Source of the DNA: Lachnospiraceae bacterium
GTDB taxonomy: Bacteria; Bacillota; Clostridia; Lachnospirales; Lachnospiraceae
Direction: 5' to 3'
DNA: 64,000 nt
Assembly: GCA_022792335.1 (NCBI GenBank)
Contig: JAAWAV010000021.1
Location: forward strand, 1-64,000
The position numbers and the translations under genes are program-made. Each line of letters starts with the position of its first letter. Positions within the stretch are counted from its first letter, which is position 1. Shown here one piece after another: positions 27,514 to 40,550 of this stretch. The notes below the pieces were generated by a model. The model saw only the letters and a list, made by a program, of their open reading frames with translations, was not told where the DNA came from and made no database searches.

Positions 27514-27790
27514 TACCGTCGCTTGACAAGGACATACACGCCCTGAACCACGATATTTGCTTGATTTTCTGCGTTATCCTTAGTCGATGTACGTCCGGTA
27601 CACCTCCATCGTCTGCCTTGAAAATCAAGCAAATGTCAGTGGTCAGGGTTGAAAAGTCGAAAAGGGATGAAATTCAGCCCCTGCAAGACACTTGACCGAC
27701 GCGTACTGGACGTACGCGGAGTGAAAGTAACGCTGCAGGAGCTGAATTTCCCCCTTTTTCGACCGTGCGTGCTCTTGTCAAGCGACGGTA
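27514..27790. repeat. 277-bp non-coding element with perfect 17-bp terminal inverted repeats and two internal hairpin arms
   Basis: TACCGTCGCTTGACAAG (27514-27530) / CTTGTCAAGCGACGGTA (27774-27790); internal ATTTGCTTGATTTTC/GAAAATCAAGCAAAT and GAAATTCAGC..GCTGAATTTC. Confidence 0.9.
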
Positions 27791-31319: not shown

Positions 31320-32606
31320 ATTTCAATCCACGCTCCCGCCAAGGGAGCGACTCTGAAATTCTAATGGCGTATATAAGTTTACAAATTTCAATCCACGCTC
31401 CCGCGGAGGGAGCGACATTTTATACGATGAATCAAGTGCGATGTTGCACAATTTCAATCCACGCTCCCGCGAAGGGAGCGACGAACCTTTTCAGTGATGA
31501 ATGTAATAAGGTTCCAATTTCAATCCACGCTCCCGCGAAGGGAGCGACATGGATTTACCGACTACGAGTCGGATAGCATTGAGATTTCACTCCACGCTCC
31601 CGCGAAGGGAGCGACGGTGGCAATTGGTCTTAGATAACAGTATAAGCAAATTTCAATCCACGCTCCCGCGACGGGAGCGACGTCAATCGACTTTTCAAAT
31701 GCTTGCACCCATTACGATTTCAATCCACGCTCCCGCGAAGGGAGCGACAGGGTTCGTTTTGAGTGAGGATAAGAACATGCAGATTTCAATCCACGCTCCC
31801 GCGAAGGGAGCGACCGGTGGAAACTGTGGATGTAACGGTTGCTAGTGATTTCAATCCACGCTCCCGCGAAGGGAGCGACCGTCTCGGATTGACTGGAACC
31901 GTGGTGAGGCCAATTTCAATCCACGCTCCCGCGAAGGGAGCGACGAGAAAATGCTGCCATTATTACAGTAGTAAAGATTTCAATCCACGCTCCCGCGAAG
32001 GGAGCGACAAAGTTTGTTCAATTTGTTCGTTTTTTTATGGTAATTTCAATCCACGCTCCCGCGAAGGGAGCGACTATTTGAGGGTGTCAAAATTTGTATG
32101 GTCTACTGATTTCAATCCACGCTCCCGCGAAGGGAGCGACGACAAACAGCCGGGGTACTTCATGGAGCAGTCTCAATTTCAATCCACGCTCTCGCGAAGG
32201 GAGCGACGCAGAAAAAGCGTGAAATGCAGCGGAAAGCAGAGATTTCAATCCACGCTCCCGCGAAGGGAGCGACCGCGAAGCTGCTTGTAAGATACCTGTC
32301 CGATGTAATTTCAATCCACGCTCCCGCGAAGGGAGCGACGTTGCAGTGCCGCCGACATGTGATAGACCCACGCAATTTCAATCCACGCTCCCGCGAAGGG
32401 AGCGACGCAGGTGGTACACTGATTGCGTATATTATCGGAATTTCAATCCACTCTCCAGCGAAGGGAGCGACAATGTGGTCAAGGACAAAACGCTGGTTGC
32501 CGGTAGATTTCAATCCACGCTCCCGCGAAGGGAGCGACTAGGCAGCCTTGTTGGGTCTGTTCTTGGCGTAATCGATTTCAATCCACGCTCCCGCGAAGGG
32601 AGCGAC
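31320..32606 (-). CRISPR. Type I-C CRISPR array, 20 repeats / 19 spacers; crRNA-sense repeat GTCGCTCCCTTCGCGGGAGCGTGGATTGAAAT
   Basis: 32-bp repeats starting at 31320, 31385, 31451, 31517, 31584, 31650, 31717, 31783, 31848, 31913, 31977, 32043, 32109, 32176, 32242, 32308, 32375, 32440, 32507, 32575; spacers 32-36 bp. Confidence 0.99.
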
Positions 32607-32785: not shown

Positions 32786-33076
32786 CTACAGAAACAAAGG
32801 AGCTTTCATATCCACGCTTTCTTTCACGCCTATATGCTCGACTTTATTTTTATAATTATTTCCAAGGTAATAAAAGCGCAGGCTGTCTGTCCTGGTGTCA
32901 ATGATTTCCTCCAAGATCGCTTTTACCTCCCTGCATTTGGCCGCATCCATCTCACATTCAAAGACGGAGTTTTGGACTCTCGTACCATAATTGACGCATT
33001 GCTTTGCCACCTGCCGCAGCCGCTTTTTCCCTGCTGCTGTTTCTGTATTGACGTCATAAGTGATCAATACCAACAT
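32786..33076 (-). CDS. cas2: CRISPR-associated endonuclease Cas2 (type I-C)
   Basis: MLVLITYDVNTETAAGKKRLRQVAKQC. Confidence 0.95.
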   Translation of the reverse strand: MLVLITYDVNTETAAGKKRLRQVAKQCVNYGTRVQNSVFECEMDAAKCREVKAILEEIIDTRTDSLRFYYLGNNYKNKVEHIGVKESVDMKAPLFL

Positions 33077-33084
33077 CCCGTCAC

Positions 33085-34116
33085 CTACTTCCACATGAAC
33101 GGCGGATAAGCATCCAGGTCGCCCCGGATATAACGCGCCAGGAGCAGCGCCTGTGCATAAGCCGCCATTCCCCATTCCATTTTTACTTCCAGAAACGGAT
33201 GTTTGATGCTTTCCTGCTTTCTTGCCTGCCAGGCCGATAATACCGCTTTCCTCGTGTCGTCATCCATAATGACCGCTCCATTCTCCTTCCTAAAAAATCC
33301 AGAAGGCGAAACAATTCTCTTGTTAATCAAAGAAAGCACAAAGCGGTCTGCGTATACTGGACGCAGTTCTTCCATAAGATCCAACGCCAGAGAAGCTCTT
33401 CCTGGGCGGTCCGTATGCAGAAAACCCACATACGGATCAAGACCCACAGTTTCCAGTGCAGCCGCAGTCATATGGGCCAACAGAGTATAAGTAAATGAAA
33501 GCAGCGCATTGACCTCGTCCAGCGGAGGCCGTCGGTTCCTTCCCCTGAAGGAAAACGTTTCTTTTTGCTGAAGAATCAGTTCGTCGAACACGGAAAAATA
33601 CAGACTCGCCGCCTCCCCCTCGATCCCCCGAAGAGTTTCCATAGAATCACAGATCTGTACGGCTTTCAACGCATTTTTTAATCTGCCGGAGACCAGTTTC
33701 AGCCGCTCCACGTCCACCCGCATAGCATGGTCTCTCGTCGCCCGCTCCAGCACCCATCTTCCATTAAACAGCTTTCCGCTAATGAAGCTTTTTGCGATAT
33801 CCAGACTGCTCTCTGTATCCTCCGACAGAAAATACTGCCTTTTGCGAAGCAGAACGTTTCCCCGGCTCTCGCCGGAAACTCTTGCAAGAAAGCGGCCGGA
33901 CCGGGAAAGAAACGAAAGCGCCACGTTCCGCTTTGCACAGGCTCCCATCAGGGCCGGACTGGCGCCGGCAAAGCCAAGGGTCACAATGGCCTCCAGGTTA
34001 TGGAGCGGTATCCTTCCCACTTCTTCACCCTCTGACAGGACGACCACATTTTCTCCGTCCAGCGACAGATATCGGTCAGGAGAAGTCACATATAATGTAT
34101 TCAGAAGTCTCTTCAA
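33085..34116 (-). CDS. cas1: CRISPR-associated endonuclease Cas1 (type I-C)
   Basis: MKRLLNTLYVTSPDRYLSLDGENVVV; NALLSFTYTLL; DPYVGFLH. Confidence 0.97.
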   Translation of the reverse strand: MKRLLNTLYVTSPDRYLSLDGENVVVLSEGEEVGRIPLHNLEAIVTLGFAGASPALMGACAKRNVALSFLSRSGRFLARVSGESRGNVLLRKRQYFLSEDTESSLDIAKSFISGKLFNGRWVLERATRDHAMRVDVERLKLVSGRLKNALKAVQICDSMETLRGIEGEAASLYFSVFDELILQQKETFSFRGRNRRPPLDEVNALLSFTYTLLAHMTAAALETVGLDPYVGFLHTDRPGRASLALDLMEELRPVYADRFVLSLINKRIVSPSGFFRKENGAVIMDDDTRKAVLSAWQARKQESIKHPFLEVKMEWGMAAYAQALLLARYIRGDLDAYPPFMWK

Positions 34117-34799
34117 TCTTCATCCTCCTTCACCCGTCTGGAAATATATTCTTTTGCCGATCTCTTTTTCATTAACTGGGGCAGGCAAAGATCTTTCAGC
34201 GAACAGGCATTGCAGGCTTTCGTTCTCTTTACCATCGGCGTATGCTTCCGCTCATAATACTGATGCATCTCCCGAAAGGCATCTTTAACCCGCCTCCGGA
34301 TCTCTTCGCCCAGTGGCACCTCGATCCGCCGCCTGATCTCCCCGTAGAATAGATATCCTTTCCTGATCTCACATCCGAGCATTTCCTCCAGGCACATGGC
34401 CTGGGCCGCCATCTGGAGGATGTCCGTTTCCTCCTCCTTTGGCTGACCTTTCTTATATTCTACCGGATATACCAGATATCTGCCCTCCCGTCCCCGCAAA
34501 GGAATCCCGTCTCCATCTGTCCGGTGAAATTCAACGATGTCGCAGACACCGTTTGTACCAAGGGTTCTGGAAAACACGGGCATCCCCCTGGAAATCAGGA
34601 TATCTCCCCTTTTTTCCGTGGAATAACCGTCGTGGGCTTTTTTATGGAACAGCTTTCCCTCCACAGTTCTCAGATTCTCTTCCCACTGCTGTTCCAAATG
34701 GATCAATGCCCACTGCCTTCTGCAGAATAAAAAATGTTGGATGCCGGAGAGCATCAAATAATCCTCTTCCTCATATCCATTCAGTTCTTCCGAATACAT
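34113..34799 (-). CDS. cas4: CRISPR-associated exonuclease Cas4
   Basis: LSGIQHFLFCRRQWALIHLE; VEYKKG; C-terminal Cys cluster. Confidence 0.96.
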   Translation of the reverse strand: MYSEELNGYEEEDYLMLSGIQHFLFCRRQWALIHLEQQWEENLRTVEGKLFHKKAHDGYSTEKRGDILISRGMPVFSRTLGTNGVCDIVEFHRTDGDGIPLRGREGRYLVYPVEYKKGQPKEEETDILQMAAQAMCLEEMLGCEIRKGYLFYGEIRRRIEVPLGEEIRRRVKDAFREMHQYYERKHTPMVKRTKACNACSLKDLCLPQLMKKRSAKEYISRRVKEDED

Positions 34800-35671
34800 G
34801 TCACTCCTTCCGGAATCTGTTCTTCACAGACGGTCACTTCATAATCTCCATAGCATCGGGGCTGCATTTCGGCTTTCCTCTTTTTCACCTTCACGGCGTC
34901 AAACAATTTATGGGCCGGCGCATCGCCAAGCTCTGAATGATGTTTGAAAATGATCAGCTCCCGGACTGCCATTTTTCCTCTGGCCGCCGAACGGTCATGT
35001 TCAAACATATTTAAAATCGCTTCCCACAAAAGCTCCGTATCCGCTTCACTGAATCCTGTCACCTTCCTTGCCAGATTGGCAGACACAAATCCCTCCGCCC
35101 GATACAATCCGTAGGGGACGATCTCCTTTCTTCCCATCTCCGTTTTCTTTTTCTCCGCATCCTTTTCCGTAGTAATGGCAACTCTCGTTATGGTCAGGCT
35201 CTGTGGCACGATGGGATCCACTGACCGGGCAAAACCAAACTGTACCGGCCCCCTCACCTGCCCGCAGTTTAAATTGGCTTTGACGAAGGTGGTCATGACT
35301 GCCCCAAAGGCTCGGATATCGAAAAATCGGGAGCACATAAAGTCCCGGATCCTCCGGTCCAGCTCCGGGTCGTCCTTTTTTAACGCCGGGATCTTTTTTT
35401 CATCGATGGATAATTCTGCAAAAGCCCCGGCATCCTTGACGTTTAAAGGCGTTCCTTCTTTAATATAAATCTGATATCCCGGATCTTCTTCCTTCACAGT
35501 CTCCACATAGTTGCGGATCTTCCGTTTCAGACAGACGTCGGTTACGATCCCATGCCCCGTATCCAGGTCCACTCTGGGCGCATTTCCATTGTCCGGGTCT
35601 CCATTGGGATTTCCGTTTTCCACGTCGAACAATACCACAAAATCATATCTGTTTCTGATTGCTTCTCCCAT
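34781..35671 (-). CDS. cas7c: Type I-C Cas7
   Basis: RYDFVVLFDVENGNPNGDPDNGNAPRVD. Confidence 0.96.
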   Translation of the reverse strand: MGEAIRNRYDFVVLFDVENGNPNGDPDNGNAPRVDLDTGHGIVTDVCLKRKIRNYVETVKEEDPGYQIYIKEGTPLNVKDAGAFAELSIDEKKIPALKKDDPELDRRIRDFMCSRFFDIRAFGAVMTTFVKANLNCGQVRGPVQFGFARSVDPIVPQSLTITRVAITTEKDAEKKKTEMGRKEIVPYGLYRAEGFVSANLARKVTGFSEADTELLWEAILNMFEHDRSAARGKMAVRELIIFKHHSELGDAPAHKLFDAVKVKKRKAEMQPRCYGDYEVTVCEEQIPEGVTCIRKN

Positions 35672-35673
35672 AG

Positions 35674-37407
35674 TTAAGCCTCCTCTTTCTTTTCGTATCT
35701 TGTCTGTGTCTGGTGATAATATCCGAGCATAAATACTGCCTGTTCCTCCGGGCCGAACTGCCTGGGAACCGGAGCCTCCAGCCGGCCGATAATTTCTACG
35801 ATTTGCATTTCCAGTTTGTCCGCCAGTTCCGGTCTATCCCGTTTCAGCTTTTTCATATGGCTTTCTTTTAACTTCAAAAGTGGCGCGAATGCTAAAACTG
35901 GCGTACAGCACATACTGTTTAAATAGCGATCTTTAATTGTCGTGTTTAAAGGATCTTTCTGGGAATCCTTTCCTTTTGCCGCCGTCACCTGCACATTCTC
36001 CAGCAGAGAAAACAGCCGTCCCAAAAGATACGCCTGATGATTCGTCTCCATGTTCAGTCCCACGCTACATCCCTCCTTATTTTTATCACTCATGCTGTTT
36101 TTCCATAAATATGCTTTCAACATAGCCGCCCGCTTCCAGTTTAGATCATGGTCTGCCCGGATTCTCCGCAAAGTACAAAAAAGCAGTTCCTCCGGATATC
36201 TGGAATCCATAAGGACCGACTGGAAAAAGGCCGTCGTCAAGGTCGGAAGCTTGTCCTTCCCTCCTGGAGCCTTCATTTCATCCAGTATCACCCAAACAGG
36301 CAGGTAAGGCTTTTTTACAAACGCCGGAAGAACGATCTCCAGCCGTTTCTCGTGGGCCCGGATATTGGCCAGCCATCTCCCAAACTGGTCTTTCAAAAAG
36401 AAGCGTACTGAAAGTCGGGCCGCATTGGGAGAAAGGCCCAGGATATAAAACAGATGATCCGGCCGAAGCTCCTGATCTTTCCACTCCACCTTTTCGCCCC
36501 GGCACAGCTTTTTAAGCGCTGCCTGGACATCCGCGTCCCGGATAGAATCCTCCTGATTTAAATATGCCATCAAAATATCCTGATGAACCGTATTTCCCTC
36601 GAAGGCCCAGCCAACCACCGTCACATCCCCCGCCCTAAAAACCCGTTGTGAATCCGACAAAAGATAATTGAGAGCTGCGCCATAGGCTCTGGCCGCACTT
36701 TCTCCAGTCTGTGCGTTTCCTCCATTCTCCATCTCATAAGAACAAAACGCCTCCGCATTGAAAGATACCAGCGACGCTCCGCTGGACTGGGCCCCCCATA
36801 CCCCCTTGATTAAGGGATGGAGCCTTGCGATCGGCTCCCGCTTTCCGGTCACCAGGCAGATTCCCGATTCTCCATCCTTCTCCCGGTTCCTGTACTGTTC
36901 CCAGGCCTCCCGGATTTCAGGATTTTCCGCCACCGGCTTCCCTTCATAATAAAAGACCAGATTTGCACCTTTTTGAAGCTCCTCCATTTCTGGCTTCAGT
37001 ACTTCATGTTCCGAGATACATTTGGGATTCCAACTGCCAAAAAAATTTTTCACTGCCTCCGCCGCTTCCGTATGCACCTCTTCCAAAAGCTCCAGGTGTT
37101 TTTTTTGTGACGCGGCAAACCGTTCCATCGCCTTCTCTGGCTTTCCTCCGCCGTCCGTTCCCAGAAGGTATCCGGCGTTGTCCCAGAGGAAAAATGCCAG
37201 CACCCCGCTTGTCCTTGTCTGGTGCTCTGGTACTCTCATCTTCCGAGGCTTTCCATTCTCGTCCTTCAGAGAAAGAAGCTGTCGGATCTCTCCGTCTTTC
37301 CCAAGCAGGATTCCGTAAGACACCTTTTCATCCATCCAGCCAGGGGCGCCGATCTTCCCCTGCTTCACAAGTTTTTCATATAGTCTTGTAAGTTCATAAA
37401 AGATCAC
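35674..37407 (-). CDS. cas8c: Type I-C Cas8c/Csd1
   Basis: MIFYELTRLYEKLVKQGKIGAPGW; GVWGAQSSGASLVSFNAEAFCSY. Confidence 0.96.
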   Translation of the reverse strand: MIFYELTRLYEKLVKQGKIGAPGWMDEKVSYGILLGKDGEIRQLLSLKDENGKPRKMRVPEHQTRTSGVLAFFLWDNAGYLLGTDGGGKPEKAMERFAASQKKHLELLEEVHTEAAEAVKNFFGSWNPKCISEHEVLKPEMEELQKGANLVFYYEGKPVAENPEIREAWEQYRNREKDGESGICLVTGKREPIARLHPLIKGVWGAQSSGASLVSFNAEAFCSYEMENGGNAQTGESAARAYGAALNYLLSDSQRVFRAGDVTVVGWAFEGNTVHQDILMAYLNQEDSIRDADVQAALKKLCRGEKVEWKDQELRPDHLFYILGLSPNAARLSVRFFLKDQFGRWLANIRAHEKRLEIVLPAFVKKPYLPVWVILDEMKAPGGKDKLPTLTTAFFQSVLMDSRYPEELLFCTLRRIRADHDLNWKRAAMLKAYLWKNSMSDKNKEGCSVGLNMETNHQAYLLGRLFSLLENVQVTAAKGKDSQKDPLNTTIKDRYLNSMCCTPVLAFAPLLKLKESHMKKLKRDRPELADKLEMQIVEIIGRLEAPVPRQFGPEEQAVFMLGYYHQTQTRYEKKEEA

Positions 37408-38084
37408 CGGAGCACCTCGCTTTCCGAAAGGTCCAAAACTCCGTCCGAAAGTATCGCCCGGAAAAATGTCGGACTAGCGTCATAAACCACGGTTCCGTCT
37501 TTCAGTTTGCGGGAACTGTATTCCATGTGGTGGAGCATGAGTCCCAGATCTTTCTCCCGTCCTTTGTATTCCGAATCCGGAACCTCTCCCTCCAACAGTC
37601 TAAAGTGGGCTGGAAACTCCCGGACTCCGAAATAAGGTTGATGGTAGCATTGCCCCTTCCGCGCCCGCCGCTTCAAGATATCCTGGAATTTCCCCGAATT
37701 ATCCGTGTCATTGGCTTCCGGGCCAATGTCAAAATGTGCTTCGATTACGTAGCGGACGTTTTTTAACACAGTAGACGCCCGCTGTACGATATCCGTTTTC
37801 GTATTCAGATAAAGCCCTCCGAACGCTTCTTTCTTGATGATGGTTTTCACTCCGGAGCATCCGATCTTGGACTTCACCTCGTTTCTCCGCACTCCCGCAA
37901 ACTGTATGGCATTTAACACATGGATTCGGTCGATCTGATAATGCAGGCCCGGATGCCAGAATATGGCCTCCAGAATCCCGACTGCCGCTCCCGGTGTCAT
38001 AACGTCGTAGCTATACCGCTCCGTCTTAAGCTCCGGCCTGGTAAAGCATGCGTAATCTCCCCATACCTCCAGTTTTATGGACAT
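37404..38084 (-). CDS. cas5c: Type I-C Cas5c (crRNA-processing)
   Basis: LEVWGDYACFTRPELKTERYSYDVMTPGAA. Confidence 0.96.
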   Translation of the reverse strand: MSIKLEVWGDYACFTRPELKTERYSYDVMTPGAAVGILEAIFWHPGLHYQIDRIHVLNAIQFAGVRRNEVKSKIGCSGVKTIIKKEAFGGLYLNTKTDIVQRASTVLKNVRYVIEAHFDIGPEANDTDNSGKFQDILKRRARKGQCYHQPYFGVREFPAHFRLLEGEVPDSEYKGREKDLGLMLHHMEYSSRKLKDGTVVYDASPTFFRAILSDGVLDLSESEVLR

Positions 38085-38101: not shown

Positions 38102-40234
38102 TTACACAAAAATTGCAGCGCCTTCCTCCTCCGAAAAGGTAAGGCCGGCACGTTTATCATACAGTTTCTCATTTATTAAAACTGCCGTTCCCTGAATCAG
38201 CTCTATATCTCCCAACCGCAAGAGTTCCCGGTAATGAGGTTCGTAGACATTCACGCTGTATCTCCCCAATTTTCGGAAAAGCCCCCCGCCTGTCTGCCCG
38301 CCCCGAAGCTTTCGGACCAGTTCTTTTCCCTCTTCCTTCCAGGGAATATAAACCGTATCCGTATCCTCATTGATCAGCCGGAAGGTTTTCGCAATCTCCC
38401 GGAACGCATACTGCTCCACCTTCTCCATGATCTTTTTTCGATCCAGGTTTTCCTTCCCCCGAAGCTCCCTCCAGAAGCGGAAATAGGCTTCAATCGCCTC
38501 CAGGCTGTCCCATTCCTTATACTCCTCCATAATACAGCGAGCCACCTTCACCTGCTGACTGATGGAATCCGGAAGCCTGCCGCCCTCCAGGGAGAACACC
38601 TCCACGATGCTTTCCTCCGGTTTCCCCATTCCGTTCCGGTTACACCGGCCCGCCGCCTGCAAGATCGAGTCCAGCCCGGCCTGTTCCCTGAGCACATACT
38701 GGAAGTCCAGATCCACGCCCGCTTCCACCAGGGAGGTGGCGATCACAAGGCAGGGAAGGTTTTCTTCAAGCCGCCTTTTAATCTCAGAAAGTACTTCTTC
38801 CCTGTGAGCCGGGACCATCATCGTTGTCAGATGAAAACACTCTTCCCGTCTTTCCAACAGTTCATACAGCCTCCTTGCTGTCCGCTTCGTATTGACAATG
38901 CAGAGCGCCTGTCTGTGGGACTTCAGTTTTTCCGCAATTTTTTCCAGTGGCAACGCCCCTCCATTCACGAACGTGACCCGTTTCAGCCGTTCAAACTGCT
39001 TTTTCGTGTCTTTCGTAATCTCCTCCGGCTCTGTCCCCTTTGGAAATGTAATTGCCGGCTGAGTCGCCGTGCAAAGAACCTGAGTTGCCCGAAAAAGAGC
39101 AGATAGTTCCTCCATGGCATGGATACAGGGTGTCCAGTAAGCGACCGGAAGCATCTGTACCTCGTCATAAATGATCACGCTGTTCGCGATATTATGGAGT
39201 TTTCTGCACCTGGAAGATTTATTGTGAAACAGAGATTCAAAGAACTGAACTGCCGTCGTTACAACAATCGGCATGTCCCAGTTTTCACTGGCCAGTTGGA
39301 ACGGACTCCACTCCTCCTCAGAACCTGCTTCATAAATCACATTGGAATGATGCTCCAACACATTTTCTTCCCCCAGAATCTCCCGGAATTTCTTTGCCGT
39401 CTGCTCAATGATATTCATATAAGGGATCACATAGATCACTCTGTCCAGTCCCTGAGATACCCCGTGGCGTAACGCCCAGTATAGGCTGCTCACAGTTTTT
39501 CCGCCTCCCGTGGGCACTGTCAGTGTGTAAATTCCCCGCTTCGCTTCCTGCCCATGAGCCGCCACAGTCTGGAGAAGCTCCGAACGCATTCCGTTTATGC
39601 CTGTTTTCCCCATCAGCCAGCCCTGTTCTTTCAACCAGGCTTCCAGCCTCCCCAGCAGTGTTTCCAGACATTCGCCCGTTCCCCTTGACGCTGGTTTTCC
39701 ATTCATAAATTCTTCTGTATTTAAAAAATCAGCGTCCACCAGAGACGAATACAAAAATTTCGTCTCCATGTATCTATCAAAAGTCGTCTGAGAAGGATCC
39801 ATTTCCGGTACATCATGGATATGTAGAAAAGGACAGAGCTCCTCCCATCCGCTGTAGTCCGGAATTTTCCCGGACTGTCCTTTTTTTAAACGTCCCCGGA
39901 CTGTTCCGTCGTCGGTATCCATCTGCCCGCCAAAATCCAACAAGCCGCTGTGATGTCCCATTATACACATAGCCGCCGTCATCTGTCTCCTTTTAAACGC
40001 CTCCAGGGCTCCGGCTGTGGAATGATCACATCTTTCTGTGGACTTCGGATTCCGAAGCCTGGCCTGAAATTCCTCGCTGCATTTCCCAAGATCATGGAAA
40101 CCTCCCGTCAGTTCTCCCAAAGGCTGCTTTCCGAATGCGGCTGCAAATTCCCCCGCTAACTTCGCCGTCTCCTGCAGATGCTCCAAAACAGTCTGTTCTC
40201 TGTCCTCTGCTTTGTGTGCCAGATAAGTTTTCAT
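38102..40234 (-). CDS. cas3: Cas3 helicase-nuclease
   Basis: HD (GGFHDLGKCS), PTGGGKTVSSLYWAL, IIYDEVQMLP. Confidence 0.97.
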   Translation of the reverse strand: MKTYLAHKAEDREQTVLEHLQETAKLAGEFAAAFGKQPLGELTGGFHDLGKCSEEFQARLRNPKSTERCDHSTAGALEAFKRRQMTAAMCIMGHHSGLLDFGGQMDTDDGTVRGRLKKGQSGKIPDYSGWEELCPFLHIHDVPEMDPSQTTFDRYMETKFLYSSLVDADFLNTEEFMNGKPASRGTGECLETLLGRLEAWLKEQGWLMGKTGINGMRSELLQTVAAHGQEAKRGIYTLTVPTGGGKTVSSLYWALRHGVSQGLDRVIYVIPYMNIIEQTAKKFREILGEENVLEHHSNVIYEAGSEEEWSPFQLASENWDMPIVVTTAVQFFESLFHNKSSRCRKLHNIANSVIIYDEVQMLPVAYWTPCIHAMEELSALFRATQVLCTATQPAITFPKGTEPEEITKDTKKQFERLKRVTFVNGGALPLEKIAEKLKSHRQALCIVNTKRTARRLYELLERREECFHLTTMMVPAHREEVLSEIKRRLEENLPCLVIATSLVEAGVDLDFQYVLREQAGLDSILQAAGRCNRNGMGKPEESIVEVFSLEGGRLPDSISQQVKVARCIMEEYKEWDSLEAIEAYFRFWRELRGKENLDRKKIMEKVEQYAFREIAKTFRLINEDTDTVYIPWKEEGKELVRKLRGGQTGGGLFRKLGRYSVNVYEPHYRELLRLGDIELIQGTAVLINEKLYDKRAGLTFSEEEGAAIFV

Positions 40235-40272
40235 ACCATTTTTCTCCTTTTTCCACGGTCCAGGCGTGTGCT

Positions 40273-40289
40273 CTTGTCAATCGACGGTA
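40273..40289. repeat. Solo copy of the TACCGTCGMTTGACAAG unit in the cas3 5' region
   Basis: CTTGTCAATCGACGGTA. Confidence 0.8.
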
Positions 40290-40294
40290 GCTGA

Positions 40295-40323
40295 ATGATA
40301 ACATTTTTACATTTAAATTTCAA
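40295..40323 (-). promoter_or_regulatory. Predicted cas operon promoter
   Basis: Minus strand TTGAAA (40323-40318) -N17- TATCAT (40300-40295). Confidence 0.65.
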
Positions 40324-40335
40324 TTAACTTATAAT
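40306..40335 (+). promoter_or_regulatory. Predicted divergent promoter
   Basis: TTTACA-N18-TATAAT. Confidence 0.55.
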
Positions 40336-40356
40336 ATATAAGATATCATATCTGGA
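40319..40356 (+). promoter_or_regulatory. Candidate operator: TTC PAM + partial protospacer for the crRNA-like RNA at 40438
   Basis: TTC|AATTAACTTATAA vs guide AATTATCTTATTA: mismatches only at positions 6 and 12 in first 13. Confidence 0.7.
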
Positions 40357-40402
40357 AATAAAAGGCAAGCAGAATTTGTCGAAATAAATATTTTTTTTAA
40401 CT

Positions 40403-40431
40403 TTGCTTCTCTCTTCTTTCTGTGTTATGAT
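40403..40431 (+). promoter_or_regulatory. Promoter of crRNA-like RNA
   Basis: TTGCTT-N17-TATGAT, predicted +1 at about 40438. Confidence 0.65.
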
Positions 40432-40437
40432 AGCTTT

Positions 40438-40550
40438 GTCGTGGAAAAAATATCAGATCCATTTTCCATGTGGATTGAAATAATTATCTTATTAAGCGAG
40501 TGCTTTCCAGCCATGCATCTTTCATGCCGGACCGGACGCACTCTTTTTTT
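40438..40550 (+). ncRNA. crRNA-like regulatory RNA (CreA/CreR-like) with diverged type I-C repeat and partial-match guide
   Basis: GT[CGTGGAAAA..TTTTCCATG]TGGATTGAAAT (40438-40481), guide from 40482, terminator GAGTGC..GCACTCTTTTTTT (40498-40550). Confidence 0.7.

Follow-up and report, generated by a model that had tools for sequence, protein, structure and literature searches.

RNA-guided autorepression of cas genes is said to be exerted by tracr-L in type II-A systems (work of Workman et al. in 2021), and stand-alone repeats partly complementary to cas promoters were reportedly predicted in diverse type I systems by Shmakov et al. in NAR in 2023. CreR is listed for types I-B, I-E and V-A in the passages of two reviews (PMC13131331; PMC12737573) that treat Liu et al. 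(2023, Cell Host Microbe). The CreA RNA of H. hubeiense has been found by mutation to require exactly positions 1–5 and 7–11 plus TTC (PMC8501985), and transcription is repressed when I-C Cascade occupies a TTC-flanked site that covers a -10 (PMC10865793). No CreR-type RNA for type I-C was found in the reviews and texts covered; the primary surveys (Liu 2023; Shmakov 2023) lay outside this scope, and an earlier I-C prediction in them is possible.

Here, we describe a unit located upstream of cas3 in the window, which is the whole 64,000-nucleotide stretch of gut-bacterial DNA that was analysed. The unit is very probably a CreR-type gene belonging to a type I-C system, through which Cascade would repress its own synthesis. 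This reading is drawn from the anatomy of the guide, its unique PAM-flanked target, the covariation of guide and target, and the pairing periodicity of Cascade, all of which are evident at the level of the sequence. Against it speak the weak -35 hexamer of the guide promoter, the unexceptional fold of the RNA, the single repeat with its terminator inside the spacer, and a pairing in the window that barely passes position 11.

The guide gene and the neighbouring cas operon

The window carries a complete cas set, read in one direction in the order cas3-cas5-cas8-cas7-cas4-cas1-cas2 (Table 1), together with a CRISPR array, which would be the source of the canonical crRNAs competing with the guide. 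A stand-alone, diverged (psi) I-C repeat is located outside this array, flanked by two host chromosomal genes, a spoIIQ-like gene and cas3. As the preliminary description of this DNA had stated, the repeat is rewritten, with the GT, the stem position and the 11-nt handle kept; its stem sequence is unrelated to that of the array repeats, while the handle is intact. Of the 20 copies of the handle 11-mer in the window, 19 are in the array repeats and one is in the guide gene; 0.08 would be expected by chance.

The promoter and the terminator proposed in the same description were both borne out by the analysis. The predicted +1 of the guide RNA is the G of the psi-repeat GT, and the -35 and -10 are both kept in two relatives of the same genus (G007 and G010). 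This promoter was absent from the list of the consensus promoter scan because its -35 hexamer is weak. The 3' end of the guide RNA is formed by the predicted terminator, which occupies the 3' half of the spacer, with no second repeat.

The guide RNA was no more stable than its shuffled versions (z -1.4), and folding alone was uninformative. In the centroid fold, the handle pairs with the loop; the pairable segments are GATCCA in the loop and TGGATT in the handle (within 40449-40481), which may reflect either chance or a second conformation. A search of Rfam with the guide RNA matched no family.

Table 1. Coordinates of the guide gene, its target and the type I-C locus in the window.
Feature	Position	Strand	Details
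Psi-repeat	40438-40481	+	diverged I-C repeat
Psi-repeat GT	40438-40439	+	
Psi-repeat arms	40440-40448 / 40462-40470	+	CGTGGAAAA / TTTTCCATG; 9-bp stem, 13-nt loop
Psi-repeat handle	40471-40481	+	11 nt, TGGATTGAAAT
Guide-gene promoter	40403..40431	+	TTGCTT-N17-TATGAT; TG-extended -10, +1 at 40438
Psi-spacer (guide)	40482..40515	+	34 nt behind handle, starts AATTATCTTAT
Guide pairing positions 1-5 / 7-11	40482-40486 / 40488-40492	+	
Intrinsic terminator	40498..40550	+	GAGTGC 40498-40503 / GCACTC 40538-40543 + T7
TTC PAM of target	40319..40321	+	
Protospacer	40322..40355	+	over -10 and start of cas3 operon promoter; seed match 40322-40332
cas3 operon promoter	40340..40368	-	TTGCCT-N17-TATCTT; TG-extended -10, predicted start ~40333
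cas3	38102..40234	-	first gene of operon; TIGR01587, TIGR01596
cas5c	37404..38084	-	predicted processing nuclease; TIGR01876; 18 bp behind cas3
cas8c	35674..37407	-	TIGR01863
cas7c	34781..35671	-	TIGR02589
cas4, cas1, cas2	32786..34799	-	TIGR00372, TIGR03640, TIGR01573
CRISPR array	31320..32606	-	repeat GTCGCTCCCTTCGCGGGAGCGTGGATTGAAAT; 19 repeats with handle

The target at the cas3 promoter and its conservation

The 34 nt located 3' of the handle were compared with the region upstream of cas3. Besides the guide itself, the best seed match was found on the + strand at 40322, directly 3' of a TTC, where the sequence reads AATTA-A-CTTAT versus AATTA-T-CTTAT in the guide. Positions 1–5 and 7–11 are identical, positions 6 and 12 are the only mismatches in the first 13, and pairing barely goes beyond position 11. 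The sequence TTCAATTANCTTAT has a single occurrence in the 2.67-Mb genome, which is this target site. A 10/10 seed match was reached by 1 of the 3,229 TTC sites in the window, the runner-up scoring 8, and a 10/10 TTC-flanked site appeared in 0.011% of Markov-random versions of the intergenic region (~1e-4 for the region alone). The target at 40319-40332, which was not part of the preliminary description, is the strongest evidence for the guide reading.

Three candidate promoters were considered for the cas3 operon. TTGCCT-TATCTT was preferred over TTGAAA-TATCAT (40323-40295) and TTTCCA-TATTAT (40358-40331) because it is the sole candidate conserved in position; its position and TG extension are kept in the relatives G004, G007, G009, G010 and G390. 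The choice is immaterial to the conclusion since the protospacer overlaps all three candidates. A dispersed intergenic repeat of ~40 nt (CGTCGATTGACAAGAGCACACGC core) was also observed, with 19 genomic copies; window copies are located at 27765-27787 and at 40264-40286, the latter falling within the cas3 5' leader.

Guide and target were followed together in the near relatives. Both are kept in G007, where the flanks are 73% identical. The guide of G010 reads AACTATCTTAC and its promoter TTC-AACTAACTTAC, so that guide and promoter share the changes at positions 3 and 11 and retain the mismatch at position 6. A member of another genus (G390, Cas3 63% identical) has the guide AATTATTTTAT versus the target AATTTATTTAT, a match of 9/10, and a psi-repeat whose stem differs (CATATGAAA/TTTCATATG). 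In G004 (L031, ~8500), a deletion has removed the guide promoter and repeat and joined the guide terminator to the region upstream of cas3, which represents a loss intermediate of the guide. No guide was found in G009, and the target is absent in both of these guide-less relatives. The preliminary description had tied its reading to the conservation of the handle and stem in related loci, and when this was checked both were found to be conserved.

These comparisons also bear on a Racr-like decoy, that is, a solitary repeat RNA, possibly phage-derived, which would jam Cas proteins. The repeat is indeed solitary with its own promoter, and a I-C Racr exists (RacrIC1; PMC10651486). Racrs are, however, encoded by a virus or plasmid, whereas the guide sits at a chromosomal cas locus between host genes (spoIIQ-like and cas3) and is kept at the cas promoter across genera; a covarying, PAM-flanked guide would moreover be needless for a decoy. 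We regard this explanation as highly improbable.

Type I-C guides across the scanned loci

A scan for guides of the CreR type covered 128 fetched loci (853 kb, partly redundant) and selected TTGAAAN with, directly behind it, a spacer that agrees at positions 1–5 and 7–11 with a TTC-flanked site no more than 1.2 kb away. It yielded 20 distinct 10/10 matches with TTC, and 0–3 for each of six control PAMs; spacers read in other registers were mostly array artefacts. Manual inspection removed nine implausible matches (L029 at 11257, two in L041, and one each in L046, L072, L077, L080, L083 and L087), which were inside genes or without a repeat-like handle and stem. With these and the duplicates removed, the family comprises 26 loci, whose handles vary slightly (CGGATTGAAAA, TGGGTTGAAAT, AGGATTGAAAC). 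On the Cas3 tree, the guides are scattered, yet clustered within Bacillota.

The position profile of the 26 loci, which gave the clearest result, presented a match at positions 13–17, which played no role in the selection, in 99/130 cases where ~51 were expected, while positions 6, 12 and 18 matched in 18/78 (~23 expected) and positions past 18 at chance level. Family pairing therefore covers positions 1–5, 7–11 and 13–17, and complementarity stops at 17. In guides held in type I Cascade, every sixth base is unpaired. The 6-nt periodicity in the predicted pairing is the footprint of such a Cascade guide.

A plan in which GT precedes an arm of ≥4 bp, a loop and a complementary arm abutting the handle is fitted by 22/26 members (1.6 expected). 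These show 18 distinct arm pairs, all of which start with C and end with G as in the array repeats. This variation is read as compensatory change under a kept plan of the putative Cas5c substrate. Only the register-fixed stem test, with GT immediately 5' of the arm, was informative; when the register was left free and any stem abutting the handle was accepted, most members fell short of significance.

The repeat might alternatively be what remains of a decayed array, its match to the promoter being accidental. Its diverged sequence and unremarkable fold z-score would suit a relic, but the guide-target covariation, their co-loss, the stem compensation and the family-wide periodicity make this scarcely credible. 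The PAM-flanked seed match, together with the covariation, stem compensation and periodicity, supports the earlier proposal of a crRNA-like RNA that would load Cascade for regulation.

The location of the guides differed with the layout of the operon. Six of the 26 guides are at the promoter upstream of cas3, and 20 are in the cas3-cas5 interval and target the promoter there. The cas3-cas5 gap is 18–81 bp in 6/6 of the former and at least 230 bp in 19/19 of the latter, L054 not being counted as its cas5 is outside the fetched stretch. The promoter predicted to be regulated is always the one driving the Cascade genes. Guides tracking the Cascade promoter in this way are as expected if the guide-loaded complex autoregulates.

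Further genes were seen behind some of the targeted promoters. In L055, L057, L058, L064, L065, L118 and L119, two ORFs lie between the guide-targeted promoter and cas5. One encodes a DUF3990 protein (PF13151; the L064 copy scored 172 bits), the other a conserved protein of ~150 aa for which no Pfam match was found; L117 has only the ~150-aa ORF, without DUF3990. The DUF3990 loci are possibly a CRISPR-regulated toxin module in type I-C. In G010, the first ORF that follows the targeted promoter, located before cas3 (L029, 13707-13805), encodes a hydrophobic peptide of 32 aa, MEIFISLLVSVLGGVACHYVIKWLDDGGKSNN. In L054, the targeted promoter is followed from ~3908 by an ORF (MDLATIQSMLKIGETVAVEFKR...) that by eye resembles an AlbA_2-type protein, with cas5 not directly behind.

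A CreA-type antitoxin, an RNA that mainly represses a toxin in the operon leader with cas control as a by-product, would make the loss of Cascade kill or arrest the cell. The DUF3990 protein and second ORF driven ahead of cas5 in the seven relatives' loci favour this explanation, as does the peptide before cas3 in G010. In the window, however, no toxin gene or toxic RNA is visible behind the targeted promoter, the ~100 nt from the predicted start to the cas3 ATG hold no convincing ORF, and in G007 and G390 a distance of only 26–35 nt from target to cas3 leaves no room for cargo. An antitoxin is therefore judged unlikely, and the CreR-type reading is retained. A broader proposal, which we hold tentatively and at slightly less than even confidence, is that guide autorepression is general in Bacillota I-C systems and re-targeted to the Cascade promoter, and that one Lachnospiraceae clade uses it to hold down the DUF3990 cargo as well. 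If this were true, a single promoter would, on silencing of Cascade, free both a putative DUF3990 toxin and new Cascade, the cargo being ahead of cas5.

Proposed mechanism and comparison with known systems

The steps we infer for the CreR-type gene are transcription, cleavage, loading, repression and de-repression. A short RNA would start at the psi-repeat and stop at the terminator, and Cas5c would cut it at the stem base of the psi-repeat to give a normal 11-nt handle, 5'-UGGAUUGAAAU... The guide would load Cascade, and the resulting CreR-Cascade would bind TTC-AATTA(A)CTTAT in the promoter of its own operon, at the start region. Because pairing stops early, at ~11 nt, it would not support a full R-loop and attack by Cas3, yet it would block RNA polymerase. 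When Cascade is occupied by canonical crRNAs or anti-CRISPRs, repression would be lifted, a step modelled on CreR as given in the reviews.

Autorepression of cas genes by an RNA guide would then include type I-C, whose guides are made by another enzyme, Cas5c. The 26 matched guide-target pairs further make the Cascade pairing rule of positions 1–5, 7–11 and 13–17 readable without experiment. Under this mechanism, I-C expression is predicted to respond to crRNA load and anti-CRISPRs, which matters for I-C expression from native promoters.

Among the known systems, tracr-L involves Cas9 and a long tracrRNA, while the guide in the window is repeat-derived. CreA of CreTA (I-B, haloarchaea; PMC8501985, PMC9458426) follows the same seed rule of positions 1–5 and 7–11, with a TTC PAM and a degenerated repeat, and CreA of H. 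hispanica likewise has one repeat and a T-rich terminator. It differs in that the target in the window is a cas promoter and no toxin was seen there. With CreR, as portrayed in the review passages, the unit shares a stand-alone diverged repeat and a spacer partly complementary to a cas promoter, beside the cas operon; the guide likewise has its own promoter, a PAM-flanked target and seed-limited pairing. A two-repeat mini-array is common but not obligatory for CreR, whereas the window has one repeat followed by a terminator. CreR is reported there in types I-B, I-E and V-A, whereas the window is type I-C, in which Cas5c and an 11-nt handle are expected instead of Cas6. The preliminary description had called the RNA CreA/CreR-like; of the two, CreR suits the window better than CreA, given a targeted promoter that drives cas genes and the lack of any visible toxin.
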